The notes: generated by a model from the sequence alone, not told the origin. Numbered from the stretch's first letter, positions 3,018-25,772 are shown. The stretch is 38,343 bases of DNA from a virus (IMGVR_UViG_3300035698_020015:1-38343); one strand, 5' to 3'. Numbers and translations: made by a program.

Positions 3018-3917
3018 TTATTGTTCAACGATCCCTGAAAGGATCAACAAGTCATTCAGGGGTTCGTCAGTATCTTCCGTAAGATTCTGCTTTTTACCCT
3101 GAGTAGTTTTAGTTGCGTACTCGGCAATTACTTGCTGATCTTGAGCAACTCTTTGACCACGCCCGCTTGCATTCTTGGCTTTTCCAATTCGTACTTTCTT
3201 TTCTGCTTTGGCAGCCTCAGTCAGAAGCTCGCTGGCTTCTTTAACCTGCTCATTGAGCCTATTGTTCTGGGCCGACAACTTAACATTTCTTGCCTCTACA
3301 ATTCTCATCTGACCTTTGATATCTTCACATACTTTCGCAACTTCTTGAAGTTTCGAAGCACTTACGGCTGTAAGGTCATCACTTTCTACGTACTGGGACA
3401 GTAGCTCAGCCATCTTCTCGACGATGACTCTCTGCTCTGCCAGTGTGGGGTCGTCGAGTACGTCACGCTTTGCGTGCTCGTAAATCTCCGACTCTTGAAG
3501 ATTGAGGAACTGGTCAACTTTGTCGACCATGAAGTTCTTCATCTCTTGGAGCTTCTTATCGAACTCTTCATATAGTCCGACTTCGATGTTGTCATTCTTG
3601 CCTTTTTCTTTGCTCAATTCTTGATAAGCTTCTTCGAATCCCTCTTCGAGAGCGGTCTCGAACTCTTCGCGTTGCTCATCTAGACGATTCATCAAAGAGG
3701 CAATAATTTCGTATGCCTGTTGATATCCCTGTTCTGAGATCTGTCCTTCGGTATCCTTTTCTGAAGTCAACTGCTCGTAGGCTTCATCCAATTTAGCTTG
3801 GAATTCGTCCTCAAGACCTTTGACTTGCTCGGCCATCATTTGTTCGACGGCTTCGGAAACCTCAGCAACCTGATCTTCAGGGAGGATCTTTTTTAGCGCT
3901 TCAGTGATCTTATCCAT
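3018..3917 (-). CDS. 22: Prohead core/scaffold protein (gp22-like)
   Basis: 299 residues, rich in Glu, Lys and Gln, with long predicted coiled coil (about residues 20-240) and few hydrophobic stretches. It lies exactly between the prohead protease and the capsid gene, the T4 place of gp22, the core protein on which the prohead shell assembles. Several L-x-E sites (for example LDEAYEQ and LLTEAAKAEKK) fit degradation by gp21 during maturation. The start overlaps the protease stop by one base (TAATG), so translation is probably coupled. Sequence identity to gp22 is not obvious by eye; the call rests on composition, length and position. Confidence 0.85.
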   Translation of the reverse strand: MDKITEALKKILPEDQVAEVSEAVEQMMAEQVKGLEDEFQAKLDEAYEQLTSEKDTEGQISEQGYQQAYEIIASLMNRLDEQREEFETALEEGFEEAYQELSKEKGKNDNIEVGLYEEFDKKLQEMKNFMVDKVDQFLNLQESEIYEHAKRDVLDDPTLAEQRVIVEKMAELLSQYVESDDLTAVSASKLQEVAKVCEDIKGQMRIVEARNVKLSAQNNRLNEQVKEASELLTEAAKAEKKVRIGKAKNASGRGQRVAQDQQVIAEYATKTTQGKKQNLTEDTDEPLNDLLILSGIVEQ

Positions 3918-4624
3918 TACCCTAACCTCGACTTAAATTTCTGTGTTTGAGATTCTACAATGCCGCCCAAACAAGCGATCAATGCCTCTTTTTTGTTAAT
4001 CATATCTATGCCGCTGGCTTCGTTTTTAATACCAGCGTTCTCATTACGATCAACTCTCTCGTTTCGTACCTTGGAAGGTTCTACGTTCTCCTTCTTCGAT
4101 TTCGAAACGACCTTTTCTTGGAACGCCGCAAAGGTACTGGGGTCGGCGACTGCATCAAAGGTGATAAGCTTATAGCTTTCGCCAATAACTAGAATACCGT
4201 CCTCGTTAACCTTTCCGTTCCCCACTCCTCGTGAACTAATTCCTACTTTCACTCCGTCTTCGATAAGAGCCTTAAGGATCTTGCCGTTAGGAGTATTCAA
4301 AATTTCTCCCTCTCCCATTAAGATGTTTCCATCCCACCATAATTTGGTGACAACATGAGAGGCTTCGGAGAAATGAATGATAGAATCCGTTGGATGGTCT
4401 AGTTCGCCGACAAGTCGTCGATCTGTAACCGACTCACCGAGTCGATCAAGATTGTCATTAAGAACATCATACGGATACATTCGTTTGTTTTTGTTAACTG
4501 CTTCAGCTTCTTGGAATTTTCCCCGGAAACTGACGAGACCACGACTGGTCGTAGCCTCGCTCAGTTCGAGTTCCATACCTGAATCGCTGCAACAATCAAC
4601 AAGAAGCATCTGTTTGTTATCCAT
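3917..4624 (-). CDS. 21: Prohead maturation protease (gp21-like serine protease)
   Basis: 235 residues, close to T4 gp21 (212). Herpesvirus-assemblin-type signatures are present: GLVSFRGKFQEAE near the N-terminus, NKNKRMYPYDVL, the catalytic-His segment RLVGELDHP, and the catalytic-Ser segment VGISSRGVG. The family cleaves scaffold and capsid proteins after L/I-x-E inside the prohead. The C-terminal 60 residues are charged and probably act as a removable or targeting tail. AAGGAG stands 8 bases before the ATG. The gene is coupled to the scaffold by a TAATG overlap. Confidence 0.94.
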   Translation of the reverse strand: MDNKQMLLVDCCSDSGMELELSEATTSRGLVSFRGKFQEAEAVNKNKRMYPYDVLNDNLDRLGESVTDRRLVGELDHPTDSIIHFSEASHVVTKLWWDGNILMGEGEILNTPNGKILKALIEDGVKVGISSRGVGNGKVNEDGILVIGESYKLITFDAVADPSTFAAFQEKVVSKSKKENVEPSKVRNERVDRNENAGIKNEASGIDMINKKEALIACLGGIVESQTQKFKSRLG

Positions 4625-6377: not shown

Positions 6378-6545
6378 GGTTTTTACTCCTCGACTTCTAA
6401 TGTTGGCATCCAAAGCACTACAGCTTGTGTTTCATTTATATAGGAAGAAGGCTTGAATTTGGTTGTGAGACCAATAAATACTCAATGCCCGCCACTATGT
6501 AAGTATGCAGGGAGACTCGATTTTTGTTAAGAAATGAGGCGTATA

Positions 6546-11428: not shown

Positions 11429-11475
11429 GAACAGGAAGGCATTTTGTTGGGGCAACTTACTTTAATTACAGTGTC

Positions 11476-11847: not shown

Positions 11848-12354
11848 GAAGACGGTGTAATTACAGATGAACTCCCGCCCTACCCACTCATCCAATCCTT
11901 TGTGTTTCCAACCTTTTCCTTTTTTGACATAAGCAATAGTTGCGTGTGGTTGGTATTTATCATAAGTGTTGGTATACTCCACGCTATCTCTTAGTTTTTT
12001 GTTTAGACGACACAGATCTTTGCTTTCTACACCAATGACCACTACATCAAACTTTTGAGGATTTGTGAAAACCTTAATTTTGCCAAGTTTCACATGGATT
12101 GATTTTTCATTTTCGAGTAGTTTTTTGACTTCTTCGGAAGATTCTGAGTGAAGACCATAGAGCATTGTGACATGCATTTCATCTTCTCTGCCGAATGATG
12201 GATCTTGTTGGCTTACGAAGATATCGTCATCGCTAACTTTTTTGCGTCCCCAACTTATGATGTTGTCAGCGAGAGAATTGGGAAGATTTACATGAATTGA
12301 AGAGTATTCATATTGCGTGTTTTTCATCTCCAGCAACCAATTTCTGAATTTCAT
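11803..12354 (-). CDS. 2H phosphoesterase (LigT/Acb1-like), possible anti-CBASS protein
   Basis: 183 residues from ATG at 12354, where AGAGGA lies 6 bases upstream; the longer open frame (to 12474) overlaps the previous gene and is not used. Two H-x-T motifs define the 2H fold: HVTMLYG and, about 80 residues on, HATIAYV. The family opens or cleaves 2'-5' and cyclic phosphodiester bonds. T4 gene 57B (Acb1) is a 2H enzyme that destroys CBASS cyclic nucleotides, and this protein is of comparable size. The N-terminus MKFRNWLLEMK resembles a capsid-targeting sequence and has an L-x-E cleavage site, so packaging into the head is possible. Fold call firm, role inferred. Confidence 0.82.
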   Translation of the reverse strand: MKFRNWLLEMKNTQYEYSSIHVNLPNSLADNIISWGRKKVSDDDIFVSQQDPSFGREDEMHVTMLYGLHSESSEEVKKLLENEKSIHVKLGKIKVFTNPQKFDVVVIGVESKDLCRLNKKLRDSVEYTNTYDKYQPHATIAYVKKGKGWKHKGLDEWVGREFICNYTVFSSKNGTKHRIPFAK

Positions 12355-12382
12355 TAAATCCTCTAAGTTTCGTTTGCAATAT

Positions 12383-12763
12383 TTAGTCTCCCAGCAATTG
12401 ATCTGGAATAGATTGATCTGGAATAGATTGGGCCTGTTTTTCCAAATCCTGAAGTTTCTTTTTTTCTCCCTCAATCATGGCATCCAGTTGCGAGAGTGAT
12501 TTTTGATGTGTTTCCACGGTCATTGGGGAAGCTGCCAATGCAGAAGTTCCAGCTTGAATGTTGCCCCACCAGCTTTCGGACTGGCTTTTGATCATACTCT
12601 TCTTTTTAGCCAGTGAATCCTGCGCAACATCGATCTTTTCGAGTGCTTGCTTCATGTGAGACCGTGCTTCTGTGACAGATCTGTTATTCGGCATGGAATT
12701 CAATGCCACACTCAGTGCTTGTCCGAGAAGATTCTTTACTCGATCTAGTTCTTTGTGTTTCAT
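12383..12763 (-). CDS. Coiled-coil protein of unknown function
   Basis: 126 residues, helical and Lys/Gln-rich, with two coiled-coil stretches (about 35-60 and 85-115) around a central WWGN. The C-terminus has a fresh 15-base tandem duplication giving SIPDQSIPDQ. The start overlaps the preceding endonuclease stop (ATGA), with GAGGCG upstream. A small-terminase role could be imagined from size and closeness to the terminase, but no family likeness is visible, so it is left unnamed. Confidence 0.72.
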   Translation of the reverse strand: MKHKELDRVKNLLGQALSVALNSMPNNRSVTEARSHMKQALEKIDVAQDSLAKKKSMIKSQSESWWGNIQAGTSALAASPMTVETHQKSLSQLDAMIEGEKKKLQDLEKQAQSIPDQSIPDQLLGD

Positions 12764-13851
12764 AATATCGCCTCTTCAAAATATTTCATACCTTTGTTGC
12801 TTTTATCTATGCCTTTAGCAATTTGTCCAAGCTCAGCATATTTGGGAAATCTCCCAAGTGTGTTTGTAAGGTCTTTGAGTTCAGCAATTATGTTTTCTTC
12901 TTTTCCCCAATAGCCATATGGTCGTTTAGTTCGCTCGCCTGTTACTATTTTTTGGAAATATCCATAACCACTATGTGTTTTGATAGAGCTTGCCAAATCA
13001 CTGTGATTACTTTCTTGAAGTTCTCTATCGTTAGGAAAATGACCCGAATTTTTGGTTATCAACTTAAGTTCGTTTATGATTCTATCTTCGGAATATTCTT
13101 TGGTTTTGGACTGATAACCAAGTAAGTTTGCAAATTTCCTAAAACCTCCAAACTTTTGTATTGCAGAAATCAAATCACTTCTGTGTTTTGCTCGCAATTG
13201 ATGGGCTGTGGGAAAATCACCGATTTTTTTTGCGATTGTTTTGATTTCCTTTAATACAGTAGTTTCATTCCAATAGTCTAGTTTTCTTCTGTTGAACACA
13301 GGGTAATCTTGCTGTTGATCTCTGGAATGAATATCAAATTTCTGTAGTCTATCTTTGAACAAACTTTGCAACTCGTTGGAATCAAGTCTGAAATCTCGTC
13401 CCTCAAAAGACAAAAGTTGTAATTCGAGTTTCTCATAAATCTTTTCTTTCTTTTTTCTTCTTTCGCAATAGTTATTGTAGAAATTACCTGTTGCAGATAT
13501 TCCCCATATTTCGACATAAACATCTTTGATTTTGAAGTCATATCGACATTTGCTTTCAGAGCAAATCTGGCTATCAATGTCATGAGGGATGTTATTCAAG
13601 AAAAGATATTCATCAAAGAGGTATTCGTAATAGCTGGACAGGATGTGTCCATCAGAAGCTTTGTGATATTTTGATATTTCTAGATCAGCTTGACTCACAA
13701 CATTTCGGTATCCTCCAAGAGATTTGATGCCGAGTCGAAATGATCTTCCGTACTCTTTTCTCATTTGGCAATATTTTGGCACTTTGCCATTTTTAGCTAT
13801 TTTTTGGAGGTGAGTTGTGGCTACTTCGATGTCATTCCATATGTTGCTCAT
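12760..13851 (-). CDS. Homing endonuclease with HNH-associated repeats and PD-(D/E)XK/Vsr-like nuclease core
   Basis: 363 residues from ATG at 13851. The frame is open to 13884, but ACTATGTAATAGT directly before 13851 matches the no-RBS start pattern seen at other genes. Residues 70-140 form a nuclease core: SSYYEYLFDEYLFLNN, then YDFKI (D105) and VEIWG (E114). Four copies of the homing-endonuclease-associated repeat occur (one before and three after the core), each with a G-x-[FV]-P core and an Arg/His-rich helix, for example GDFPTAHQLRAKHRSDL. It lies directly after the terminase on the same strand, a classic intergenic homing site. Confidence 0.78.
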   Translation of the reverse strand: MSNIWNDIEVATTHLQKIAKNGKVPKYCQMRKEYGRSFRLGIKSLGGYRNVVSQADLEISKYHKASDGHILSSYYEYLFDEYLFLNNIPHDIDSQICSESKCRYDFKIKDVYVEIWGISATGNFYNNYCERRKKKEKIYEKLELQLLSFEGRDFRLDSNELQSLFKDRLQKFDIHSRDQQQDYPVFNRRKLDYWNETTVLKEIKTIAKKIGDFPTAHQLRAKHRSDLISAIQKFGGFRKFANLLGYQSKTKEYSEDRIINELKLITKNSGHFPNDRELQESNHSDLASSIKTHSGYGYFQKIVTGERTKRPYGYWGKEENIIAELKDLTNTLGRFPKYAELGQIAKGIDKSNKGMKYFEEAIL

Positions 13852-13903
13852 ACTATTACATAGTAAGTTGCCGACCAAATTCATAAAATATTTTTAACCA
13901 ACA

Positions 13904-15733
13904 TTACCATCCGAACTCACGAATCAGAGCATCGTGAGTCCTTTTCATTCCTCCCGGAATAACAGAAGGAAGGTCGCTATGCCGATTGATTTTTTCCATC
14001 AAATCCATATCATCTGGAGACATCCAGTCATCGGGAGCGTTTTTTGACAATTCCTTCTTGATTTCCTCGAATATCTCAGCCTTATAAGCTTCGGTGTATT
14101 CTTCTTCGGTTGTGCTACCAACCGGAATCGAACGCTGAAGGCTGTCTCTGGCATACAAAGCCAAACATAAAGCCATAATTGCATCATCATGGAATCCTTT
14201 GGATGCTTTGGCTTTTTTGGTTTGGGGATCGAATATGAATCCCTTGAGTTCTTTAACAAACCGTCGACTGCGAATAGCAATGCTGTGATTGATGAGCAGA
14301 GTTTGCATGGTGGTTAGAAACTTGGGTCGATTACTTTGTGTAGTTTTGATTCCCGGTTTCATATTTGTGACACTTCCTTGAGAACTCTCAAAGAGGTTAT
14401 CGTAATAAAACTCATGTTGGAGCTTTTCTAAGATGGTAAGTCCAGCACTTTGACTTTCTATAACAACTGTTGCGGTATTGTAGGTTTGCCCTACCATTGC
14501 CAATATCTGAGCAAAGTTGTGTGGTGGACAAATGTTGCTGTAGAATTCGGCTACTTGTTCACTGGTCACTGAATCAATTACTTGGAAACAACTGTTGTCT
14601 CCATCCTCGCCCATGCCTTCCGCAGAGTCGACTCCAATGATATAGTCTCTGCCTTCAACGGGTTCTCTCCAAATCAGCAAAGCGCCTCGATGCCAATTGT
14701 CCATGTCGGTGATTCGTTCTTCTCTTGCTTCTTCGTAGTTATTCCAGTCCGGGAACAATTTTCTTAGTGGCTCTATTTCTCTTGTGGTTAAGTCAAGGTC
14801 GTTGATGATTTCTGGGTCGATGTAAGAATCACCGGCACCCAAGAAGTCACGCATAACTTCCTGAAGCCAACCCTTTTCACCCAATTGCGCACGAGTCTGC
14901 TTAACCCAGTCTTCGTCATCGTAGTCAGGGTGTTCCCAGTAATCCAATTCAATAATGTTAAAGTCATTCTGCGGAGGTGTCTTTTCCGCACCCTTAAAGA
15001 TGTCGTAGTACCAATTACCGACTCCATTGACCGTAGAGACACAGATGCAATGCCCACCAGTGCTGATCGTCGGGAACATAGCCTTCCAGTGTTTCTCCAT
15101 TTGCGGAATAAACGCAGCTTCGTCAAGAATGAGGTACGTAATGGATCGCCCACGAGCCGCTTCGGGTGTGTAGAAGAACAGCTTACAACCTGTATCAGAA
15201 AAGATCTTCTGGTGATCATTGTTCTTCTCCATGTCTGGTTTCATCCATTCAGGGAGTTCAATCATTGCTCGTTTGACAATTTCGCCAGCAGCAATGGCTT
15301 CACGATCTGACTTGGACAACACCATGATGGTTTCGTCTAGTTTGAACAGACATCTCCACGTGGACCAAATTACTGTAATTGTGGTCAGCCCACCTTGACG
15401 GAATTTCGAAAGAATATTGAAACGGTTCATTTCATATTCTTTGATGACTCGCTTTTGGTATTTGTAGATAATAAAAGGAATAAGACCCCGCTTGGGGTGT
15501 GCGATCTTTACATACTTATGACAGAAGTATGAAAATGACATAGCACACTTCAGTAGCTCTTTTTGTTGGACCTCGGGGGGATAATTTTCGATGTCCTCAA
15601 ACGGCTCTAACGGATCGATGGCCGTCTCGTGCTTACTGAAACCGTAATATTTCGGGTCATATTCGACCTGATAAAACTCTTCTAACGTAGAGTATTTCGC
15701 CCGCCAGTTGGGGTCTACATCCTTAAATGGCAT
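13904..15733 (-). CDS. 17: Terminase large subunit (gp17-like DNA-packaging ATPase/nuclease)
   Basis: 609 residues, the same length class as T4 gp17 (610). ATPase: Walker A-like SKFRQGGLTT at 109-118 (the Lys is at the front, a known deviant form), Walker B YLILDEAAF at 200-208 with D204 and E205, and coupling motif VSTVNG at 232-237. The RNase H-like nuclease acids are D369 in GVDSAEG, E426 in VVIESQSAG, and D516/D517 in FHDDAIMAL. It pumps DNA through the portal and cuts concatemers. GGAGG lies 10 bases before the ATG. Confidence 0.97.
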   Translation of the reverse strand: MPFKDVDPNWRAKYSTLEEFYQVEYDPKYYGFSKHETAIDPLEPFEDIENYPPEVQQKELLKCAMSFSYFCHKYVKIAHPKRGLIPFIIYKYQKRVIKEYEMNRFNILSKFRQGGLTTITVIWSTWRCLFKLDETIMVLSKSDREAIAAGEIVKRAMIELPEWMKPDMEKNNDHQKIFSDTGCKLFFYTPEAARGRSITYLILDEAAFIPQMEKHWKAMFPTISTGGHCICVSTVNGVGNWYYDIFKGAEKTPPQNDFNIIELDYWEHPDYDDEDWVKQTRAQLGEKGWLQEVMRDFLGAGDSYIDPEIINDLDLTTREIEPLRKLFPDWNNYEEAREERITDMDNWHRGALLIWREPVEGRDYIIGVDSAEGMGEDGDNSCFQVIDSVTSEQVAEFYSNICPPHNFAQILAMVGQTYNTATVVIESQSAGLTILEKLQHEFYYDNLFESSQGSVTNMKPGIKTTQSNRPKFLTTMQTLLINHSIAIRSRRFVKELKGFIFDPQTKKAKASKGFHDDAIMALCLALYARDSLQRSIPVGSTTEEEYTEAYKAEIFEEIKKELSKNAPDDWMSPDDMDLMEKINRHSDLPSVIPGGMKRTHDALIREFGW

Positions 15734-15776: not shown

Positions 15777-15815
15777 AGGAAGTTTCAATTTTTGCCACAT
15801 CATGGAGAAAAAAAA

Positions 15816-16880
15816 ATGAAAGCCAGAGAAACGTTAATCTTGCTGATTGTTGTCGTGTCAGTGATGACAATGGGGATTTCGTACATCAGGTTCGTGAAGA
15901 AATCTGGTCCCCCAACTACGATAGGAGAACCTTATCGACCTGATGAACCTGCCGTGAAACCGGAAGAACCAAAACCTAAAACCTTTGAAGAAGCAGTTGA
16001 TTCTGTCACTGCTGAAGAACTTAAAGAACATGTCTACTTCCTTGCAGACGATAAATTAGAAGGTCGTAAGAGTGGAGAACCGGGATGTGATGCAGCCAGA
16101 GATTACATCGTCAAACAGCTTCAAGGGTATGGGCTGCCAACTGAACTAGATGAGTTCAAGGTCAGAACTGGAGATGGTTCAACTGAGAATGTCTATGCTT
16201 GGATTGAAGGCACAGAGAAGCCCGATGAGGTTGTTGTAGTTGGAGCGCACTACGATCACATCGGCACGGGTCGCAATGGAGTATTCAATGGAGCGGACGA
16301 CAATGCTTCTGGAACTTCTGCGGTTCTCGAAATGGCTGAAGCATTATCCATGATCAAAGAACAGTGCAAGCGAACGGTCGTGTTCCAGCTTTACTCAGGT
16401 GAAGAACTGGGGTTGATCGGCAGCACACATTATGTTGGAAGTCCCACTTTTCCCAAGAGCGGACCTTCTTTAGACAAGCACATCTTTATGGAAAACTTGG
16501 ATATGATCGGGTATCTTCCGCGAACCGTATCGATCACCACCAATTTCGGACCCGTAGATTCATTGATTACAGATCTTAAAGACAAGTATCCATTTGCCAT
16601 CAGAGTGACAAAGACTGGTGGCGGTGGTTCTGATCACGCTTCCTTTTCTCGTCGTGGTGTTCCTGTGGTTTTTATGCATACAGGAACAGGTACAAGTCCT
16701 TATCATCAAGTTACAGATGATGCTGACAAGTTGAACTATGAGGGTATGGAAGGCATTTCGAGATATGGTCTTGAATTACTTTGGAAAGTGTGTCAAGATG
16801 GTCTTGTAAAAAGAGCCATTAAGCTCGAAGTCTTAGAAGATACAGATCTAGATCACGGAACCGTGCCATTTTTGGAGTAA
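15816..16880 (+). CDS. Membrane-anchored M28-family metallopeptidase
   Basis: 354 residues from ATG at 15816, with GGAG 9 bases upstream; an ATG at 15792 lacks a site. Residues 6-27 are one hydrophobic helix (signal anchor), followed by a Pro/Glu-rich linker (about 32-55). The M28 dizinc aminopeptidase core is complete: H145 and D147 in VVGAHYDH, D161 in NGADDNASG, E196-E197 in SGEELGLIGS, D229 in MENLDMIG, and H297 in SPYHQVTDD. Such enzymes trim N-terminal amino acids from peptides outside the cytoplasm in bacteria. It faces away from the terminase and starts a plus-strand gene group. A role on the host envelope or in peptide scavenging is inference. Confidence 0.93.
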   Translation: MKARETLILLIVVVSVMTMGISYIRFVKKSGPPTTIGEPYRPDEPAVKPEEPKPKTFEEAVDSVTAEELKEHVYFLADDKLEGRKSGEPGCDAARDYIVKQLQGYGLPTELDEFKVRTGDGSTENVYAWIEGTEKPDEVVVVGAHYDHIGTGRNGVFNGADDNASGTSAVLEMAEALSMIKEQCKRTVVFQLYSGEELGLIGSTHYVGSPTFPKSGPSLDKHIFMENLDMIGYLPRTVSITTNFGPVDSLITDLKDKYPFAIRVTKTGGGGSDHASFSRRGVPVVFMHTGTGTSPYHQVTDDADKLNYEGMEGISRYGLELLWKVCQDGLVKRAIKLEVLEDTDLDHGTVPFLE

Positions 16881-16950
16881 GGAAGAAAAATGCCAACAAA
16901 AAATTGTGATTTTGCCCACAGAAAATGAATACACAACGCTATATAATTGT

Positions 16951-17778
16951 ATGGGTAAAAAATGGACAGAAAAAGAAATTGAAGTGCTTGAATCAAACTG
17001 GAGCACCAAACTAGTTTCGGAATTACAAAAGTTGCTTCCGTGTCGCAGCAGAGATGCAATTCTCAGTAAAGCCAAGTACATGAATTTGGTCATTTCCGAG
17101 AGCGAACTTCTCCGCCGCATGAAACTAGGGCGATCTTTAGTAAAAAAAGACAATTTCAAAGTAGATCAAAATTTGAAATTGGAAGACATCGATAATATCA
17201 CTTTTCAGGTTCTTCTTGGAAGCATGTTAGGTGACGGTTGTTGCAACAAGCAATCACCTAACTTAAAACATCATAGATTTTGTGAGTCTCATGGACTTAA
17301 ACAGAAAGACTACGCTGAATGGAAAGCTAAAAAATTGTTTGTATTCAAGCCTAGATTTTATGTATGGAAATCAACTGCACAAGTCATAACTCTTTCACAT
17401 CCTATCTTCGATTTACTAAGAGATAAATTTTACTTACCAGAGCACAAGAGGAAATCAAAGATTCCTTTGGATTTGGTAGAACAGTTGGATTTACTTGGAT
17501 TGATGATTTGGTACTTGGATGATGGACATCTAGGAAAAATATCTCACCAAATGTCCATTGCTGCTAAGGGCTGGCAGAAAGAAGGATTGGTTGAATTTTC
17601 TGAAATACTTAACCGCAAACATGGGTTATCCACTTATGTCTATTCATGTAAACATAAAGATGGCAAAAATCACATTGTCAAGTTTTCCTCTCAAGACAAA
17701 ACTATTCTTGATAAATGGGGAAAAATGGCTTTGAAGCACACGATGCCAGAGTGCATGATGTACAAAATGACTTTCTAA
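16951..17778 (+). CDS. LAGLIDADG homing endonuclease
   Basis: 275 residues from ATG at 16951. There is no ribosome binding site, but GCTATATAATTGT directly precedes the ATG, the leaderless pattern seen elsewhere; the ATG at 16906 in the same frame is unsupported. Two LAGLIDADG helices are visible, FQVLLGSMLGDGCC and LLGLMIWYLDDGHL, so it is a single-chain monomer. The N-terminal 45 residues (KKWTEKEIEVLESNW) look like a SANT/Myb-type DNA-binding unit. It separates the peptidase from the CYTH gene and probably has its own promoter. Confidence 0.88.
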   Translation: MGKKWTEKEIEVLESNWSTKLVSELQKLLPCRSRDAILSKAKYMNLVISESELLRRMKLGRSLVKKDNFKVDQNLKLEDIDNITFQVLLGSMLGDGCCNKQSPNLKHHRFCESHGLKQKDYAEWKAKKLFVFKPRFYVWKSTAQVITLSHPIFDLLRDKFYLPEHKRKSKIPLDLVEQLDLLGLMIWYLDDGHLGKISHQMSIAAKGWQKEGLVEFSEILNRKHGLSTYVYSCKHKDGKNHIVKFSSQDKTILDKWGKMALKHTMPECMMYKMTF

Positions 17779-17790
17779 AAAGGAGAAATC

Positions 17791-18351
17791 ATGTCGACTG
17801 AGTTTGAGTACAAGTATTTTTTGGATGTGAAAATTGCTGTCGATCCGAGATTGATCGGCTTGCCGCAAGGAACAATCCGGCAAGGCTATCTGGCCACATC
17901 CGACTCCATGAATGCTCGTGTTCGGAATTGCATTTATGCGAATGGTAATGAAGAATGGATTTACACTTTCAAACAGAAAGTTACAGGAAGACAAGTTGAG
18001 ATCGAACAAAGTCTCAATACTAGAGATGGCATGGATTTGTGGGAGGTTGCTGACTTAAAGCTCAAGAAAACAAGGCATTACTACGAAAATAAAGATAGAA
18101 CTGTATGGGAGATTGACCTCTTCTACAGCAGTGATGGGTTGTACATGGCGTTGGCGGAAATTGAGCTTCCAGAAGGTTCACCTCCCCCGAATGAACTGCC
18201 CGAGTTGTTACAGAAACATCTTTTATTCGAAGTACCCTTGACAGATGATCGTTTTTCCAATAAAAGATTGGGAGACGTGAAATACGTTCAGAGACTATAC
18301 GAAGAAATCCAAGGAGCCCATCATGGCCACAACCAAGAAGAAAGTGTATGA
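17791..18351 (+). CDS. CYTH-domain protein (triphosphate tunnel metalloenzyme-like)
   Basis: 186 residues. The family signature E-x-E-x-K appears at the start as FEYKYF (degenerate). Matching strands follow: IRQGYLA, ARVRN, WIYTFKQK, VEIEQSL, WEIDLFYS and MALAEIELPEG, which supply the charged tunnel residues. CYTH enzymes hydrolyse triphosphates such as PPPi or thiamine triphosphate, or make cAMP; which one applies here cannot be told. GGAG lies 7 bases before the ATG. It overlaps the next gene by 29 bases. Confidence 0.85.
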   Translation: MSTEFEYKYFLDVKIAVDPRLIGLPQGTIRQGYLATSDSMNARVRNCIYANGNEEWIYTFKQKVTGRQVEIEQSLNTRDGMDLWEVADLKLKKTRHYYENKDRTVWEIDLFYSSDGLYMALAEIELPEGSPPPNELPELLQKHLLFEVPLTDDRFSNKRLGDVKYVQRLYEEIQGAHHGHNQEESV

Positions 18352-18664
18352 ACTCGTTTCCAATCGACCGGTGGCGAAGTTCTTTTACCGAGGTACTCAC
18401 AGTCATCCAGTTCGCCGAACTGTGTTGATCATTGAAGACACGCCCACGAAGATCGTTGGGTATGAATTCCGATGCGGCAATGAAGTAAGATCAGTCTCCC
18501 AAGCATTGAACGAGAATGCGGTCAAGACGTATCGCAAAGATCGTATCGCCAAGTGGGGAGACTACGTCCGTCTGCGACAAACCTCGAAGACGTTCTTGAA
18601 AGACCCTGAGAAGTCGACACTGGAACGAATGCCGATCTTGGCAATGTTCACCGAGGGCGCGTAA
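18323..18664 (+). CDS. Unknown basic protein
   Basis: 113 residues, Arg/Lys-rich (MATTKKKVYELVSNRPVAKF, then RRTVLIIEDTPTKIVGYEFR), probably a small alpha/beta nucleic-acid-related fold, but no family is recognised. AGGAG lies 7 bases before the ATG, inside the end of the CYTH gene (29-base overlap), so the two are co-translated. A terminator follows. Confidence 0.75.
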   Translation: MATTKKKVYELVSNRPVAKFFYRGTHSHPVRRTVLIIEDTPTKIVGYEFRCGNEVRSVSQALNENAVKTYRKDRIAKWGDYVRLRQTSKTFLKDPEKSTLERMPILAMFTEGA

Positions 18665-18686
18665 GACAATTAAGCAAGGGTGGGGC

Positions 18687-18719
18687 AAGCCTCGTTCAAT
18701 TTTGGGCGGGGCTTTTTTA
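18687..18719 (+). terminator. Rho-independent terminator after the CYTH gene pair
   Basis: An 8-bp stem (AAGCCTCG at 18687-18694 with CGGGGCTT at 18707-18714, one T-G wobble) is followed by a T-run on the plus strand. Confidence 0.75.
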
Positions 18720-18732
18720 TTAGGAGAATGAA

Positions 18733-19191
18733 GTGGAGAAATATCTTAAGTTACTCATGGAACATGGATTTTTGATTTGCGAATACCCAGAAAGCAACTC
18801 ACATCCTCGTCCAAAATTTGTGTTATGGAAAGTTCAGACCTTTTCTGACCAAAACCTACATGATGACGAAGACTTTAACACATGGGATGATGCTTTTGCT
18901 AGAGCCATGTGTCATATTGGCGGCGTTGAATACTTCAATTTCTTGGATGAAACCAAACCTCCAAATACACCCAGCACTCATCAAGCCACTCATCATTGGA
19001 TGGCACAGTTGATGTATCGACACAAGGGACTTGGTCCAAAGTTCGCAGATCTTGGAATGATAAAAAGTGTGTCCTACGAAGAAGCGGTGAAGCAATCCAA
19101 AAAGTGTGCTGAGAAACACATCACTGATATCATCGGCGAAGAAGTCGTTGAAGGATGGGATGTACGTGTGCGTCCGTGTGACACGCCCTAA
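18733..19191 (+). CDS. Unknown protein, GTG start
   Basis: 152 residues. GTG at 18733 is chosen because GGAG lies 6 bases upstream and no in-frame ATG is near. Trp/His-rich middle (STHQATHHWMAQLMYRHKG); no motif recognised. It lies between two terminators, so it is probably read with a promoter inside 18665-18730 or by read-through. Confidence 0.7.
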   Translation: MEKYLKLLMEHGFLICEYPESNSHPRPKFVLWKVQTFSDQNLHDDEDFNTWDDAFARAMCHIGGVEYFNFLDETKPPNTPSTHQATHHWMAQLMYRHKGLGPKFADLGMIKSVSYEEAVKQSKKCAEKHITDIIGEEVVEGWDVRVRPCDTP

Positions 19192-19306
19192 TAGTTGGAG
19201 CAAGGTCATTGAACAGATCGTTAAGACTTTCTTCTCCGACATACCGGAAGGCAGGTGTTTTGATTTCTTGTTTGGTTGTGGCGAGAAAAACGTGGCTCCT
19301 TTTTGA
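19160..19306 (+). CDS. Possible small overlapping frame (48 residues)
   Basis: ATG at 19160 with AAGGATGG just before it opens a frame that leaves the previous gene and ends in the loop of the following terminator (CCT TTT TGA). The product (NSWSKVIEQIVKTFFSDIPE in the middle) looks protein-like. It could be a real small gene or the end of the previous gene cut off by a frameshift. Low confidence. Confidence 0.3.
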   Translation: MYVCVRVTRPNSWSKVIEQIVKTFFSDIPEGRCFDFLFGCGEKNVAPF

Positions 19307-19324
19307 GGGAGCCACGTTTTTTAT
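19286..19324. terminator. Bidirectional terminator
   Basis: An 11-bp perfect stem (AACGTGGCTCC at 19289-19299, complement at 19308-19318) has T6 after it on the plus strand and a T-run on the minus strand. It serves both the plus-strand unit ending near 19191-19306 and the minus-strand unit ending at 19373. Confidence 0.88.
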
Positions 19325-19372
19325 ATAGGAGGGAAAGTTATACAGCGTGTACTGATTCCAAATGTTCTCTCC

Positions 19373-20005
19373 TTACATTACGAAAAAGATGTAACCAAAG
19401 AAAGCCACTTGGGCAACAAGAATAAATGCTAACACACCATTCATGAGGTTGTCATTCTTCTTCTTCTCGGAAACGTTATTTTCAATCACTGATTGGGCAC
19501 GCAAGGGTTTCTGGGGCTCTGGTGCGTAACGAACCGGCTCCTCATAAACCTCTTCTTCTCTTACTGGTGGATGTACTGGTTCGTGAGGAACCATGTTCTC
19601 CATCAATGCCTCAACACCAGCGACAACGCCATCAGCAACTAGTTGACCAATTTCTTCTTTGCGAACATAATCACCGTCAACAATTTTACCATGGTCAGCT
19701 ACACCAATGCGTTCACGAATTTGTAATGGCACTTCGGGCTCAAGCGAACGGACCTCTACGTGATCCACTTCGCCATCCTTGATTGTTTCCCGAGTCTCTT
19801 TGGCCACGATTCGCTTTGTTTCTCTTACGATTCGTTCTTCGAGTTTTAGAGGACGTTGTTCCTCTGCGAAGATTTCAACCACTTCATTACCATTCTCATC
19901 CTTTATGGTATGCCTCTCTGCTTGGCGACCATCTTGAAGTCGAATCTGTTCGACCCTTTTTTGGTCTTCGCATGGGCAATTATGGTCATGTTGGTTATTA
20001 GCCAT
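19373..20005 (-). CDS. C-terminally membrane-anchored unknown protein
   Basis: 210 residues from ATG at 20005 (GGGAGGGG upstream); the longer frame to 20125 needs a GTG without a site. The N-terminus MANNQHDHNCPCEDQKR is His/Cys-rich. The middle is repetitive and Glu/Arg-rich (LEERIVRETKRIVAKETRET) and reads like beta-strand repeats. Residues about 187-209 (LMNGVLAFILVAQVAFFGYI) form one C-terminal membrane helix, a tail anchor. It could sit in the host inner membrane; function unknown. Confidence 0.72.
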   Translation of the reverse strand: MANNQHDHNCPCEDQKRVEQIRLQDGRQAERHTIKDENGNEVVEIFAEEQRPLKLEERIVRETKRIVAKETRETIKDGEVDHVEVRSLEPEVPLQIRERIGVADHGKIVDGDYVRKEEIGQLVADGVVAGVEALMENMVPHEPVHPPVREEEVYEEPVRYAPEPQKPLRAQSVIENNVSEKKKNDNLMNGVLAFILVAQVAFFGYIFFVM

Positions 20006-20143
20006 TTTCCCCTCCCTGTGGGTAAAAGAAAGACGAACTACTGCAATGTTATCTACTGTTGTGGGCTTAGATTTTGGAGAGTTGGATGCCTGAACAACCT
20101 CGAAACCACTCGATAAACACGGCACTTACCGCATATACAGGTC

Positions 20144-20719
20144 TTATATCCCCCATCTGAATTTGAGCTTCTGCCAAAAAGATTTCTTTTGTTCATCAAT
20201 CGTACCCATGATTTCTAGATCCCTTAGCTCTTTAAGATACTTCGATTCCTTTTTGGCGGCTTTGTAAAGTCTTTCAACCATTTGCTCCCATTCATCAAAA
20301 GGAGCGTAGCATAATAGCTCTCCTGCTATCTCTTTGTACACTTCATATCCTTTGTAAGTGACTTCGAGTTTTTGGTTGTGTGTCCAGAACTTAATTTCAA
20401 AATGCATACCGCGACTCAAACCATCGAAAACATAACCGATCTGCTGGGAGAAAGAGTCTTCTGCATCTTGGACATCATTGTTCCATATTTCTGGCCCATT
20501 TTGGTCGCTTAACATCGATCCGTATTCTACTTCGGATGCATCTTCGTAAGGGTCGCCTAAGTAGCCAACATCATAAAGTCCAGAAGCTTGCCTGACGACT
20601 TCAGATCCAAGTGTTTGAACAATTATCCCCAGTTTTCCCACAGAACCCATTAGGTTCTTTTTGGTGGCTTCGATGGTTCTTTGTTCTTTAATGGCTTTTT
20701 CTTTTTGACTCAAACTCAT
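20144..20719 (-). CDS. Unknown soluble protein
   Basis: 191 residues from ATG at 20719 with AGGAG 9 bases upstream; the longer frame to 20872 runs into the divergent gene. The N-terminal 40 residues are helical and basic (MSLSQKEKAIKEQRTIEATK), the middle acidic, the end basic (SFWQKLKFRWGI). No family recognised. It is the first gene of a two-gene minus-strand unit with 19373-20005 and is divergent from the metalloprotease. Confidence 0.7.
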   Translation of the reverse strand: MSLSQKEKAIKEQRTIEATKKNLMGSVGKLGIIVQTLGSEVVRQASGLYDVGYLGDPYEDASEVEYGSMLSDQNGPEIWNNDVQDAEDSFSQQIGYVFDGLSRGMHFEIKFWTHNQKLEVTYKGYEVYKEIAGELLCYAPFDEWEQMVERLYKAAKKESKYLKELRDLEIMGTIDEQKKSFWQKLKFRWGI

Positions 20720-20737
20720 GGTACGACTCCTGTTAAT

Positions 20738-20747
20738 CCTATATAGG
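20738..20747. promoter_or_regulatory. Palindromic TATATA element between divergent genes
   Basis: CCTATATAGG, a perfect palindrome, lies 19 bases before the minus-strand ATG (20719) and 43 before the plus-strand ATG (20791). A similar box occurs before other genes (for example ATCGTATATACGAT at 32067). It may be a shared phage promoter core read both ways. Confidence 0.45.
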
Positions 20748-20790
20748 TTAGGAGTGTTGTTGTGGAATTTTTCGTAATAAGGAGGTTGAT

Positions 20791-22230
20791 ATGAAATTTT
20801 TCGATAAACTTTTCGGAGTAAGAAAGCCCAAGCAAACACCGAAACGTCGCTGGAAGTTGCCTCGTCAGGCACCTAGTCCACAGAAAGATAATGGAAAGCA
20901 AATCAAATACATTCTGAATGATCCTACCACATTGGATTTGGTTGAAATCATGGATGCCCCTCAAGCTCCAGCTATGCCCAAGTACACCGTGCAACATTAT
21001 GCTGGGGGAGGATTCACCAGAGGTTCTCAAGAAGCCTTAGCTGCTAATTGTTACGTGACTGTGACAAACGTTCTCAACCTTTATGAAAGATGGGGTTATA
21101 AAGTAAACAGTTGGGCAGGCACATCCAATTTGATTGTGATGCCGAGAGCAGGAGCCGATCTGAACGCTTACTACGACAGACGTTCTTTGAGGTTTTTTTA
21201 TTACGCACACAAAAAAATTGGCGGCACGGTGTTCACTTCGGAATCTACTGACATTGTTGCACATGAATTGGGACATGCTATTCTGGACGCTTATCGACCA
21301 GAAACATGGAGTGCTGCGTCATTAGAGATCTGGTCGTTTCATGAAGCTTTTGCTGATCTTACAGCAATACTTAACGTCATGTCTTACGATAAGATTCTCC
21401 AACGTGCATTAAAACAAACAGATGGAAACCTCAGAAAACCCAATGTCATATCCAATCTTGCAGAACAAGTCGGGAATGCCATTTACAAATTCAGTCCGCC
21501 AGAAAGCGGAAGAAGCCCCGGTTGTTTACGTAGTGCTGTGAACAATTTCAAATATGTATCACCTAGCAAATTACCGAAAGACGCTCCCCACAATAAGTTG
21601 GCAGCAGAGTGCCACAGTTTTGGTCGCGTATTCTTGGGCGCTTATTACGACATCATAGTTGGCATCTATGAAAAACATGTTGCTGAAGGCATGGTTCCAT
21701 TGAAAGCATTGAAACGAGCTAAGTTGTCTTTGGGCAAAAGAGCAATTGAAGGCGTTTTGCACGCTGGCTTGAATGTTCATTTTTACGAAACAATGGCAAA
21801 AACCATGTTATGGGCTGATAAAACTAAGTTTGATGGAGCTTACCAAGATATCATGCGTAAGGTGTTCGTTGACAGAAAATTGATCCCAGAGGTTCAACTG
21901 CGAATTCTTTCTGCTCCTGTTTGCGACAACGAAGAAGGCATCGTGAAAACACAAAGCACTCTTCGATTTAAGCTTTCAGATCACGTGATGAGTGCTCAAT
22001 CTGGGAACAATCCTCTTTACAATGTCGAGTTAGAGATCCCCAATGATCAGCTCTATCTATATGACAACGAAAAGAACATCATTGATTCTGTTGAGGTTAC
22101 AGAAAACGAAGTTTTGATGGCCGCACAAAACATGGTTGATTATCTGCATGTTTCCAATAAGGTTGGCGACAGAACAGATACACCGTTTGAGGTACAAGAC
22201 GGAAAACTTGTGCGTACTCATTTTTCATAG
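20791..22230 (+). CDS. Zinc metalloprotease (HExxH gluzincin-like)
   Basis: 479 residues. HELGH at 158-162 in DIVAHELGHAILDAY is the zinc/catalytic motif. WSFHEAFADL at 181-190 gives E185 as likely third ligand, the gluzincin layout. Residues 1-35 are basic (MKFFDKLFGVRKPKQTPKRR) without a signal peptide. About 200 helical residues follow the active site, then a beta-rich end. AAGGAGG lies 6 bases before the ATG. It begins a plus-strand unit (with 22239). In a phage it could process virion or host proteins; a virion-carried protease is one option. Peptidase call firm, target unknown. Confidence 0.88.
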   Translation: MKFFDKLFGVRKPKQTPKRRWKLPRQAPSPQKDNGKQIKYILNDPTTLDLVEIMDAPQAPAMPKYTVQHYAGGGFTRGSQEALAANCYVTVTNVLNLYERWGYKVNSWAGTSNLIVMPRAGADLNAYYDRRSLRFFYYAHKKIGGTVFTSESTDIVAHELGHAILDAYRPETWSAASLEIWSFHEAFADLTAILNVMSYDKILQRALKQTDGNLRKPNVISNLAEQVGNAIYKFSPPESGRSPGCLRSAVNNFKYVSPSKLPKDAPHNKLAAECHSFGRVFLGAYYDIIVGIYEKHVAEGMVPLKALKRAKLSLGKRAIEGVLHAGLNVHFYETMAKTMLWADKTKFDGAYQDIMRKVFVDRKLIPEVQLRILSAPVCDNEEGIVKTQSTLRFKLSDHVMSAQSGNNPLYNVELEIPNDQLYLYDNEKNIIDSVEVTENEVLMAAQNMVDYLHVSNKVGDRTDTPFEVQDGKLVRTHFS

Positions 22231-22238
22231 GAGATATC

Positions 22239-22532
22239 ATGGGATATTACGATGGGACCAACAGAGCCGAATACAGTCGAGCCTATAAGCCCGAAAGCAA
22301 TAATGGTTGCTGCGGAGGTAGTAGTGGCTGCAACGAGCCTTCAAGGGCTCCTGAAGGTACTCCGCGATGGGAGTGGGAACAGATCTATGGAAAGCTCGTG
22401 ACTTACTTTGCCTTACGATCTGATGAAAATGGACATACCTATAAACTCATCGAGAGAATTCCGTGTCCTCTAAACACGAGTGGCACTAGCCAAGCTTCGT
22501 GTTGTTCTATAAAATACAAAGTATCTCGTTAG
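22239..22532 (+). CDS. Small Cys/Gly-rich protein
   Basis: 97 residues. The N-terminal third has CCGGSSGC and a CC pair recurs near the end; the middle (RWEWEQIYGKLVTYFALRSD) is a normal folded stretch. No family recognised. GGAG lies 6 bases before the ATG, 8 bases after the metalloprotease stop, so it belongs to the same transcript. A hairpin follows. Confidence 0.72.
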   Translation: MGYYDGTNRAEYSRAYKPESNNGCCGGSSGCNEPSRAPEGTPRWEWEQIYGKLVTYFALRSDENGHTYKLIERIPCPLNTSGTSQASCCSIKYKVSR

Positions 22533-22561
22533 AACTCCTTAAAAAATCTTCTTTATTTTCA

Positions 22562-22592
22562 AACGGACTTGCCAAAAAATGGCAAGTCCGTT
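22562..22592 (+). terminator. Strong hairpin, probable terminator
   Basis: A 13-bp perfect stem (AACGGACTTGCCA at 22562-22574, complement at 22580-22592) with a loop of five A. The plus side lacks a long T-run (CTAATATA), so it may be a weak terminator or an RNA-processing/stability hairpin. Confidence 0.65.
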
Positions 22593-22631
22593 CTAATATA
22601 CCCTACGTGTGTCCATTAGTAGGAGATTATC

Positions 22632-22886
<255 letters not shown>

Positions 22887-22888
22887 AC

Positions 22889-23509
22889 ATGAATCTTGGC
22901 ATTGAGTACCTCGTTAGAACCGGGGCAATAAAAAAGTTCATTCAAACCCCCTGCTCTCTTTTTGTGGAGCACTGGATGGGCGGTAAGATCATTGTTTTCC
23001 TTGAAAGGAAGCCCGGTCGATCTAATCTTTACAAAGTCACTCATTTTCATTTAGACAAGCTGTCTGAAGATGAGAGGCTTCCAAGAAGTGACAATTACGA
23101 AGTTCACAAAGATGAAATCTTTGATAGTGAAAGAGTTGTTCTTCCGGGAGACTACATTCTACTTTCCTACGTAGAACAACCAATCGACAACGGATATAAC
23201 AGATACAACCATCCTATGGATGAACGCACCTATAACCATTTTCTAAGCAAATACCTCCATTCTGAAATACACAAGCAAATGAAAGAAGCTTGGTTGTGGA
23301 AGGCTTATGCCAATTTGCATTTCAGCCAACCAATTCTTACTGACATATATTATGAACGATTTAGTCGGCACAGACTAACTTCGTCAGAACAAAATGTCGT
23401 CCAACAAGATGATCCAGAGAAATGGACAATTTGGACGATGTGGAGAAAGAAGTTTTTGAGATCCACCCGAGTGGCTCCTGAATTAGTCTTTAGTTCAGCT
23501 TACAACTGA
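22889..23509 (+). CDS. Unknown protein
   Basis: 206 residues from ATG two bases after the previous stop; only a weak GGGAA site is present, so coupling is likely. A TTG at 22877 in frame is possible but less likely. Sequence is Trp/Tyr/His-rich in the second half (WLWKAYANLHFSQPIL, WTIWTMWRKKFLRS). No family recognised. It overlaps the convergent gene by 15 bases. Confidence 0.68.
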   Translation: MNLGIEYLVRTGAIKKFIQTPCSLFVEHWMGGKIIVFLERKPGRSNLYKVTHFHLDKLSEDERLPRSDNYEVHKDEIFDSERVVLPGDYILLSYVEQPIDNGYNRYNHPMDERTYNHFLSKYLHSEIHKQMKEAWLWKAYANLHFSQPILTDIYYERFSRHRLTSSEQNVVQQDDPEKWTIWTMWRKKFLRSTRVAPELVFSSAYN

Positions 23510-23740
23510 CTCTTTCTTCATTTTCTTACGCATGGCTTTACGACGGCTCGCGGGATCTTCATAACCCACTGTGGCGGTTCTGATTCCGAGTTTAACCGGA
23601 TTATCGCCACCTTGCGGAAATGCACCAACTCCTTTGGATGCATCATATTTTGCTCGATCCATTGCGTCCTTCTCAGGACTGTCCATGGTGGCATTTCCTC
23701 CCGGACCCATTTCAATTTGAAGCCAGTTTTTGAATCTCAT
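23495..23740 (-). CDS. Small basic-tailed protein with capsid-targeting-like N-terminus
   Basis: 81 residues from ATG at 23740; the longer frame (to 23860) runs into the divergent gene. The N-terminus MRFKNWLQIEM is close to that of the 2H phosphoesterase (MKFRNWLLEMK). The C-terminus is basic (SRRKAMRKKMKKES), suited to DNA contact. No ribosome binding site; TATATA lies 6 bases before the ATG. It could be an internal head protein packed with the DNA; inference only. Confidence 0.62.
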   Translation of the reverse strand: MRFKNWLQIEMGPGGNATMDSPEKDAMDRAKYDASKGVGAFPQGGDNPVKLGIRTATVGYEDPASRRKAMRKKMKKESVVS

Positions 23741-23768
23741 AATACTTATATATGAGAGGAGATTGAAT

Positions 23769-24314
23769 ATGATGAATAACAATTGGCACGGTATAATGAA
23801 GATTCTTGACATCACCCACTGTGATACCGATGGAAATGTGATCTGGAAAGACCATAACATTCACAATCTTTTACACGTGGATGGCGAAGAGTTTCTGCTT
23901 CGGGCTGCTTTTCAAGGCGGCGGATCAACTTGGCCTGAAAATGGCACTATTCCAGAGTATTACTATTTGGGAATGGACAATCGACAAGTTGTGGCAAGTG
24001 ATGACACTCCAGATGATTTGATTGGAGAGCCTGCTGGAAGTGGTTATGAAAGACAACCAGTTCACTCTCATGATGATTTCGCAATAAACTTTGAGGACAG
24101 TCATTTTGTGGCCGTAAGTCCAATTGTTGCATTCAGAGCAACAACCGGGTCATGGGGGCCAGTCAGCAACTTATTCATTTCTGACACCAATGACAACACA
24201 AGTTATCTGATTTCCACAGCAGTGCTTACGACTGCTATCGAAGTCAACAGTGGAGACTCGGTAACTGTCAGGATTGGTATGCAATTAAGAGATTGTCTTG
24301 ATGGAACTTCATAG
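23769..24314 (+). CDS. Probable virion structural protein (tail/fibre-type)
   Basis: 181 residues from ATG at 23769 with GAGGAG about 8 bases upstream (or 23772). Features typical of phage structural proteins: HNIHNLLHVDGEEFLLRAAF, YYYLGMDNRQVV, GEPAGSGYERQPV, FRATTGSWGPVSNLFISD, and GDSVTVRIGMQL at the end. Predicted nearly all beta. The pattern (date/deg lines ending GY.R, then an AT.GSWG segment) is one I have seen in tail-associated proteins, but the family name is not certain. It overlaps the convergent gene by 6 bases. Confidence 0.68.
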   Translation: MMNNNWHGIMKILDITHCDTDGNVIWKDHNIHNLLHVDGEEFLLRAAFQGGGSTWPENGTIPEYYYLGMDNRQVVASDDTPDDLIGEPAGSGYERQPVHSHDDFAINFEDSHFVAVSPIVAFRATTGSWGPVSNLFISDTNDNTSYLISTAVLTTAIEVNSGDSVTVRIGMQLRDCLDGTS

Positions 24315-24794
24315 AGAATCAACCAGCTTTTTCATGTCATTGATTTGCAAAAAATGAACAACGTTCAGTGGTTTCTCCTTTTGCTCCAATTTGTTGTGCT
24401 CTCTGTACGCCATGTGTTGATGTCCGCCATCACATACATCCAACAAATTCTTTGAGGAAACTTCTGGAATGCACTTTTGATACAATTTCTCCAACTCTTC
24501 TGGTTTGTTAAAAGTCAAATCCATCCATTGTTCGTCTGTAAGGTCTAATTTCTTGCCGTCCCTGTGTGGTATAGAAACTTCATAGCCATCATCCCTGACT
24601 TGAATGGGGTTATCCTCTTTGCCATTATTGAGATAATACCTACAAAATACTTCTTTAGCGGGTTCGGAAGTTGCTTTTTCCATGTGCCATACAGGCACAG
24701 AAACTCCCGTCACAACTATTTCAATTCCAGCGTGAAGTGCGTATCTTTGATCTCGGGTAAGATGAATAAGGTGTTGTATGGTTAAACTAAGCAT
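24309..24794 (-). CDS. Unknown protein
   Basis: 161 residues. N-terminal part hydrophobic but not clearly membrane-spanning (MLSLTIQHLIHLTRDQ); the rest soluble, with DEQWMDLTFNKPEELEKLYQ in the middle. GAGGA lies 4 bases before the ATG. It converges with the virion-type gene and diverges from the serine protease. No family recognised. Confidence 0.65.
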   Translation of the reverse strand: MLSLTIQHLIHLTRDQRYALHAGIEIVVTGVSVPVWHMEKATSEPAKEVFCRYYLNNGKEDNPIQVRDDGYEVSIPHRDGKKLDLTDEQWMDLTFNKPEELEKLYQKCIPEVSSKNLLDVCDGGHQHMAYREHNKLEQKEKPLNVVHFLQINDMKKLVDSL

Positions 24795-24845
24795 GTTTCC
24801 TCACATATATAGATTAGATACATTGGACCAGTTTAGGTGGCACAC

Positions 24846-25772
24846 ATGCGAAAAACTCTCTTTATCACTGCTTTTCTTGTGTATATTGTTGTCGCTTTGT
24901 CGCTTTGGGTCAATATGAGATCGAATAGTGTTCCAGTCTCTTATGATCTGGAAGTACACGCTATCGACAATATGCCATTGGTTGGCGATGACCCATTTGC
25001 AGCAATTGCACACGGAAATGCTCCGCTCGAACAACGTAGCCAAGAATATCGTAAATGGATAGCTACAGGACTCAAGATAAGCGTTTCTGACGCTTCTGGG
25101 TCGGGCACCATTGTCTACTACAATCCAGAAGATGGATGGGCTTACATGCAGTCCTGCGGACATCTATGGGATGGGAACATGACTGCCGAGGAAAGCAAAC
25201 GAAAGAAAGTCACATGTACAGTAATCACTTGGTATCACAACAACCAAAAGCTGGATCAACCCAAAAAGTATCCTGCTGAAGTTCTGTATTACAGTAACAG
25301 CCGTGGCAGAGATATCAGTCTGCTAAGGTTTAAGCCAGATTGGGAGCCGGAATACCTGCCTATCGCCCCCGATAACTTCGAGTTTCACAAAGATATGATG
25401 TTGCATTCCGTTGGTTGTGATGGCGGTAGAGAAGTGGCACACTACAATGTTCGTCATATTGGTTTTCGTGATGTCGGGTCAGGCTGGAATGATCTCGTCA
25501 CCACAGAAAACAGCCCGCGACCCGGACGTTCTGGCGGTGGGTTGATGTCTGAGAGCTATTACGTAGGTATCTGCTGGGGAACTTCGAAATACGATGGAAG
25601 TGGAAACGGATACTTCACACCTTTGTCGACCGTTCGACAATACAACAAGCAAAACGGCTATGAATGGCTCAATGAAGTAGGATACAGTTTGGCTAGGATG
25701 ATCCCCATCAAAGATCGCAATAATCCTCAAGGCGAATACCCGGATAACTACATTCCATTGCCGGAACGTTAA
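24846..25772 (+). CDS. Trypsin-like serine protease with N-terminal membrane segment
   Basis: 308 residues from ATG at 24846 (AGGTGG 5 bases upstream). Residues 4-22 are hydrophobic after a basic start (MRKTLFITAFLVYIVVALSL), a signal peptide or anchor. The S1-type triad is visible in order: H106 in MQSCGHLW, D156 in GRDISLLRF, and S229 in RPGRSGGGL (the G-x-S-G-G loop). The fold suggests a secreted or periplasmic peptidase. A TATATAG box lies about 50 bases before the ATG. Its target is unknown; degrading host surface proteins or defence proteins are options. Confidence 0.88.
   Translation: MRKTLFITAFLVYIVVALSLWVNMRSNSVPVSYDLEVHAIDNMPLVGDDPFAAIAHGNAPLEQRSQEYRKWIATGLKISVSDASGSGTIVYYNPEDGWAYMQSCGHLWDGNMTAEESKRKKVTCTVITWYHNNQKLDQPKKYPAEVLYYSNSRGRDISLLRFKPDWEPEYLPIAPDNFEFHKDMMLHSVGCDGGREVAHYNVRHIGFRDVGSGWNDLVTTENSPRPGRSGGGLMSESYYVGICWGTSKYDGSGNGYFTPLSTVRQYNKQNGYEWLNEVGYSLARMIPIKDRNNPQGEYPDNYIPLPER

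Follow-up and report, generated by a model that had tools for sequence, protein, structure and literature searches.

Three peptidases of unrelated classes, an M28 aminopeptidase, a thermolysin/fungalysin-fold gluzincin and an HtrA/Deg-fold serine protease, are close to certainly core, co-inherited genes of a clade of T4-like huge phages. The genes were located in IMGVR_UViG_3300035698_020015:1-38343, an IMG/VR entry taken at its full length of 38,343 bases (hereafter the window), which is a fragment of what is probably a T4-like huge phage. All three lie where the original prediction had placed them, in addition to the prohead protease gp21. Non-head peptidases in phages are usually viewed as stray or auxiliary genes. 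For the present genes, the identity, the intact active sites, the core status, the co-inheritance and a common promoter-like element were computed here. The peptidases, with gp21 as a comparison gene, are:

15816..16880, plus strand: M28 aminopeptidase with an N-terminal signal anchor, a Pro-rich linker and a dizinc catalytic domain (PF04389, profile of relatives, invariant active site)
20791..22230, plus strand: thermolysin/fungalysin-fold gluzincin, with an N-terminal basic tail that has a short hydrophobic helix (structure model, motifs)
24846..25772, plus strand: HtrA/Deg-fold serine protease without PDZ domain, with an N-terminal signal anchor (PF13365, model, invariant triad)
3917..4624, minus strand: gp21 prohead protease of family S77 (PF03420, E 5.6e-27)

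Profile matches from Pfam and PHROG placed gp23, gp22, gp21, gp20 and gp17 of the T4 type on the minus strand of the window (1555-15733), and the types of gp17, gp20, gp21 and gp23 establish the T4-like affiliation. The major capsid protein gp23 shares 78% identity with its counterpart in the uncultured phage LR756511 (595 kilobases, kb), and the second-best catalogued record reaches only 34%. The window itself is only a fragment, and relatives with the peptidase cassette reach 458, 527 and 532 kb, the size bound for a huge phage being 200 kb.

The open reading frame (ORF) of the M28 enzyme spans 15792-16880, with an ATG at 15816 (residues are counted from 15792), and its match to PF04389 is strong (E 3.5e-38, 131.7 bits against a cut-off of 21.3). 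The dizinc ligands and the catalytic Glu are all kept (H153, D169, E204, E205, D237 and H305), and the six residues are invariant in every sequence that covers the site (52-54). The protein thus belongs to the M28 family by domain, ligands and catalytic residue, and its aminopeptidase activity is predicted from the sequence. Further, a profile of the relatives matched the Streptomyces griseus and Aeromonas aminopeptidases in the PDB (E 6e-30 to 1cp7). The phage enzyme shares the complete set of dizinc ligands and the catalytic Glu with these leucyl aminopeptidases (MEROPS M28). Unlike them, it is signal-anchored, carries a Pro-rich linker and is encoded in the probable late region of a phage, and it has no close match among catalogued phages.

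The gluzincin displays the motifs HELGH at 158-162, E185xxxD189 and H275. Its Pfam M4 score lies just below the cut-off (22.1 bits versus 22.4), and among 16 relatives seven match M4 at E 0.01 (best 9.4e-6) and two match M36. The assignment came from its AlphaFold model (pLDDT, the predicted local distance difference test, 87.7), which matched M36/M4 proteases at Z 21-27: fungalysins at Z 27 (root-mean-square deviation about 3 over 286-291 residues) and thermolysin at Z 22, far above the next-ranked folds, M1 aminopeptidases and similar enzymes, at Z 11-12. The HExxH motif, the third-ligand Glu and the transition-state His that define the M4/M36 fold are all present, and H158, E159, H162, E185, D189 and H275 are unchanged in every sequence covering the site (60-63). 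In contrast to thermolysin (M4) and fungalysin (M36), with which it shares the fold, HExxH plus ExxxD and the downstream His, the phage enzyme has neither a signal peptide nor a propeptide; the folded domain begins at about residue 30-35, after a disordered tail. It is therefore described by its thermolysin fold, without placement among the typical secreted M4 enzymes. The tail is basic and often opens with a short amphipathic helix, a feature that among 14 protein families of these phages was otherwise frequent in the portal gp20 and the scaffold gp22; it is open to membrane docking or packaging. No PHROG match and no PDB sequence match were obtained, and no thermolysin-fold protein was matched among the BFVD viral models at E 0.001. 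Bacterial relatives with about 25-40% identity occur in many phyla, several apparently without a signal peptide (L252-L331). A role of these relatives as cargo of contractile injection systems or as toxins found no support in six neighbourhoods viewed by eye, not systematically, in which no tail or injection genes were recognised.

The serine protease ORF covers 24837-25772, with an ATG at 24846. It matches Trypsin_2 (PF13365, E 1.5e-6), as do 15 of 15 relatives, and its catalytic triad (H109, D159, S232) is invariant in all 68-70 sequences covering it. The chymotrypsin-fold domain with its His-Asp-Ser triad resembles HtrA/Deg catalytic domains (DegS, DegP, HtrA1) at Z 17-19, with Z 19 to HtrA1/DegP. 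It differs from them in two conserved cysteines of its own (C107, C246) and in the lack of a PDZ domain, the chain continuing past the protease domain for about 35 residues only, most of them modelled with low confidence; it is thus described as HtrA-fold and not filed as an HtrA member. The original prediction had called it trypsin-like with a membrane segment. The fold, the triad and the N-terminal signal bear this out, and the specificity does not follow, because, counting residues, Ser226 occupies the site six positions ahead of the catalytic Ser, where trypsin has Asp.

The expectation that such genes are rare in phages held when 50,697 phage records were searched by tblastn, giving six partial M28 matches, two gluzincin matches and none for the serine protease. 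Profile scans within the clade confirmed 105 stretches with the serine protease and recovered 72 M28 loci, and the loci analysed contained 55 distinct M28, 65 gluzincin and 71 serine protease sequences. The gluzincin was present in 36 of 40 related whole records, the full-length serine protease in 30 and M28 in 21, frequencies that are biased by a sample containing many fragments and partly chosen via the gluzincin and the serine protease. In the 20 records (L001 to L079) for which the capsid gene was the sole or the earliest route of retrieval, the gluzincin was missing from four, all shorter than 45 kb. The catalytic residues, which had been said to be kept, are intact in the window and never altered in relatives where the sequence covers them. 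Dead or degenerate enzymes were rejected as an explanation of gaps in the catalytic columns; these are sequences that do not cover the site (for L167, the complete record G018 shows an uninterrupted full-length ORF). One gluzincin (L099/G034) is divided over two reading frames by a frameshift or an assembly error. A search for relatives that lack the genes or have lost active sites, which would have pointed to chance acquisition, thus gave the opposite picture of conserved core genes.

Selection on the three genes is comparable with that on structural genes. The median ratio of nonsynonymous to synonymous substitutions (dN/dS) was 0.065 for M28, 0.062 for the gluzincin and 0.076 for the serine protease, with gp17 and gp23 at 0.041 and 0.069, respectively; these values, from close pairs (at least 80% identical by BLAST), are indicative, the pairs being non-independent and some synonymous distances near saturation. 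Pairwise distances followed those of gp17 (Mantel r 0.54 for M28, 0.80 for the gluzincin and 0.88 for the serine protease), with none of 500 permutations as high.

The upstream regions of the three genes have in common TATATA, a clade-wide promoter-like element. The window contains only nine TATATA sites in 38 kb, mostly right before gene starts (6437, 20740, 23747, 24806, 32071 and 34023), of which four concern the genes discussed here:

20740..20745, no strand assigned: element in the interval that separates the gluzincin from the gene diverging from it
24806..24811, no strand assigned: element in the interval that separates the serine protease from the gene diverging from it
23747..23752, plus strand: element before the fibre-like gene
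6437..6442, minus strand: element upstream of the leader gene of the head operon gp21-gp22-gp23

Owing to its near-palindromic sequence, one copy of the element is shared by both genes of a divergent pair. In related phages, whose sequences are not independent, TATATA/TATAAATA was found within 65 bases upstream of 80% of gluzincin, 72% of serine protease, 50% of M28, 45% of gp17 and 33% of head-operon leader genes, compared with an expectation of 5-12% in dinucleotide shuffles of those stretches and 1-3% in random 60-mers of the same loci. The frequency was 0-7% for primase, PD-(D/E)XK nuclease and ParM-like genes and 0-2% for gp21, gp22 and gp23 within the head operon. A first small test missed M28, and a larger set with better starts found the element in half of the M28 genes. 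In the three peptidase genes it lies about 35 bases ahead of the ATG. T4 late promoters carry TATAAATA at -10. By analogy, the elements would be late promoters and the three peptidases are likely expressed late. Such timing, argued from the late-type element, fits release, superinfection exclusion or envelope remodelling, and it is compatible with a role in entry only if the protein travels in the virion. The entry and surface-layer roles named in the original prediction found no specific support here, although they are conceivable.

The N-termini provide an indication of where two of the enzymes may act. A strongly hydrophobic N-terminus was found in 51 of 55 M28 and 62 of 71 serine protease sequences, the charge was higher on the N-terminal side (positive-inside) in 43 of 52 and 50 of 55, respectively, and proline-rich linkers follow the segment. 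Taken together, hydropathy, charge bias and linkers indicate that the catalytic domains of both most likely face the periplasm. In many serine protease relatives, the segment closes with a clean small-x-small signal peptidase site (e.g. L123, L124 and L155). The bacterial HtrA/Deg family is mostly periplasmic or extracytoplasmic, and DegS is likewise anchored via a single N-terminal segment. The proposal of an action on the host envelope therefore stands as regards the probable location of these two enzymes and does not extend to the gluzincin, which has no export signal.

The genes around the peptidases are conserved as well:

17791..18351, plus strand: conserved protein on the M28 side of the cassette, matching phrog_6660 (function unassigned)
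18323..18664, plus strand: conserved small cassette protein
20144..20725, minus strand: conserved protein with no assigned function, divergent from the gluzincin
23769..24314, plus strand: fibre-like protein (Pfam Gp80, podophage GP4 fiber I; PF23140 in relatives, synteny)
24309..24794, minus strand: conserved protein of 161 residues with no assigned function, divergent from the serine protease, with a common promoter-like site
13904..15733, minus strand: large terminase subunit gp17, encoded divergently from M28 (phrog_2, E 7.7e-45)

PF23140 matches 12 of 14 relatives of the fibre-like protein (best 7.1e-10), the window protein itself being under the cut-off. Two arrangements dominate. In the first, gp17 is followed by M28, small genes, the gluzincin, the fibre-like gene, the 24309-24794-type gene and the serine protease. 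In the second, the fibre-like, 24309-24794-type and serine protease genes are inverted on the other side of gp17. These three genes nearly always form one block, and M28 to the gluzincin another.

The best explanation, to which as a whole we give somewhat less than even confidence, is that the three peptidases are vertically inherited parts of the late region and constitute a late proteolytic set, of which two enzymes would act in the host envelope and the gluzincin would be cytoplasmic, membrane-docked or packaged. For this set we infer a timing, a topology, substrates and a role in release. The peptidases would be produced late, alongside head and packaging proteins. M28 would stay tethered to the inner membrane, its catalytic domain facing the periplasm, and the HtrA-like protease would be exported, anchored in some phages and in others probably released by signal peptidase. 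Jointly they may cut host envelope or periplasmic proteins, through endo-cleavage and then aminopeptidase trimming, so that the envelope would be weakened for release, receptors removed or amino acids recycled. The gluzincin would act from the cytoplasmic side or be packaged. A bolder version appears unlikely: a dedicated late proteolytic programme directed against the host envelope, forming a lysis or release strategy in which such proteolysis accompanies peptidoglycan cleavage and a packaged thermolysin-like enzyme is the third component.

Several observations weigh against the proposed late envelope set. LR756511 contains the gluzincin, and neither M28 nor an orthologous serine protease was found in it; several records of one subclade are also without M28. 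The three-peptidase set is therefore not obligatory. The promoter-like element was recognised as a match to a consensus, and the window's own M28 gene has none. Simple hydropathy was the criterion for export signals, the signal-less gluzincin makes one of the three enzymes a misfit in a purely periplasmic scheme, and a host periplasm is assumed.

Alternatively, at least the gluzincin may be carried by the virion, either packed into the prohead core for injection or processing virion proteins alongside gp21. The basic tail and its short hydrophobic N-terminal helix would then be a targeting sequence, as the similar N-termini of portal and scaffold suggest. The gluzincin is also the most widespread of the three, lies near the head genes, with which it has the promoter-like element in common, and maturation roles have been proposed for well-conserved jumbo-phage peptidases (Iyer and co-workers, PMC7824862). 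However, the T4-type cleavage motif (L/I-x-E) was not clearly enriched in gluzincin tails (17 of 64 versus 12.7 expected), and the export signals of M28 and the serine protease are left unexplained; we consider this alternative improbable. Slightly less probable still is superinfection exclusion, in which late envelope proteases would destroy receptors, sparing the progeny from binding debris and keeping competitors out. The envelope-directed signals and the near-constant coupling of the serine protease with a fibre-like gene are consistent with it, and huge-phage proteins predicted at the membrane or surface have been suggested to alter susceptibility to other phages (Al-Shayeb and co-workers, PMC7162821). 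Yet the fibre match is remote and may reflect a shared beta fold only, and the explanation names no receptor or host. Amino-acid scavenging, by which endo- and exopeptidases would turn host envelope protein into amino acids to cover the large needs of huge-phage protein synthesis, is quite doubtful. It would account for the combination of two endopeptidase folds with one aminopeptidase, and an unspecified putative peptidase is listed among the auxiliary metabolic genes of marine megaphages (PMC9723777), but structural-gene-like conservation is unusual for auxiliary genes, for which a patchier loss across hosts is expected. Finally, chance acquisition of host peptidases with no shared role, to which the common cellular relatives of M28 and the signal-less bacterial relatives of the gluzincin might point, is contradicted by conserved order, selection and co-inheritance and was rejected as very improbable. 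No PADLOC defence model matched the peptidases, a result compatible with an anti-defence role, which a family search does not exclude.

Each domain family was already known. No published description of this conserved three-peptidase set in huge phages was found in a search that did not extend to supplementary tables and subscription papers. Jumbo-phage peptidases that, like the present ones, are phage-encoded beside the prohead protease comprise ClpP, SprT-like, ArdC-like and group 1 zincin proteins (Iyer and co-workers, PMC7824862). The words 'trypsin' and 'M28' are missing from that text and, as regards a possible link to the group 1 zincin, the present gluzincin has no PHROG match. The huge-phage paper (Al-Shayeb et al., PMC7162821) uses neither 'peptidase' nor 'protease' in its main text. 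Some of the largest phages known thus have a core, co-inherited set of three unrelated peptidase classes, two of them probably envelope-directed. If the late envelope action is true, it would constitute a step of phage release or exclusion that model phages have not shown, and the enzymes can be expressed and tested individually.

Other features of the window and its relatives deserve mention. In LR756511.1, the stretch 496367-496996 gives a weak match (E 6e-6) to the serine protease profile, far from the cassette, and may be a protease that has diverged and been displaced. A LAGLIDADG homing endonuclease (PF03161; 16906-17778, plus strand) separates M28 from the gene that follows and is likely a recent insertion, because only one locus of the first set matched. 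Mobile genes are clustered among the head genes: the portal gp20 (8615-11209, minus strand) has an intein inside (PF14890 Intein_splicing, residues 114-330), and a protein with homing-endonuclease-associated HNH repeats (PF18780; 12760-13884, minus strand) sits between gp17 and gp20. A 2H phosphoesterase beside gp20 (11803-12474, minus strand), similar to anti-CBASS Acb1 (PF23474, 3.7e-8) and 2'-5' RNA ligase models, is a candidate counter-defence gene. An actin/ParM-like protein identified by eye (32753-33766, minus strand), whose 52 distinct upstream regions in related loci are without the late-type element, is possibly a phage cytoskeleton gene. Lastly, an ORF of 84 residues (22632-22886, plus strand) consists largely of Asp and Glu and includes an extended stretch of Asp.
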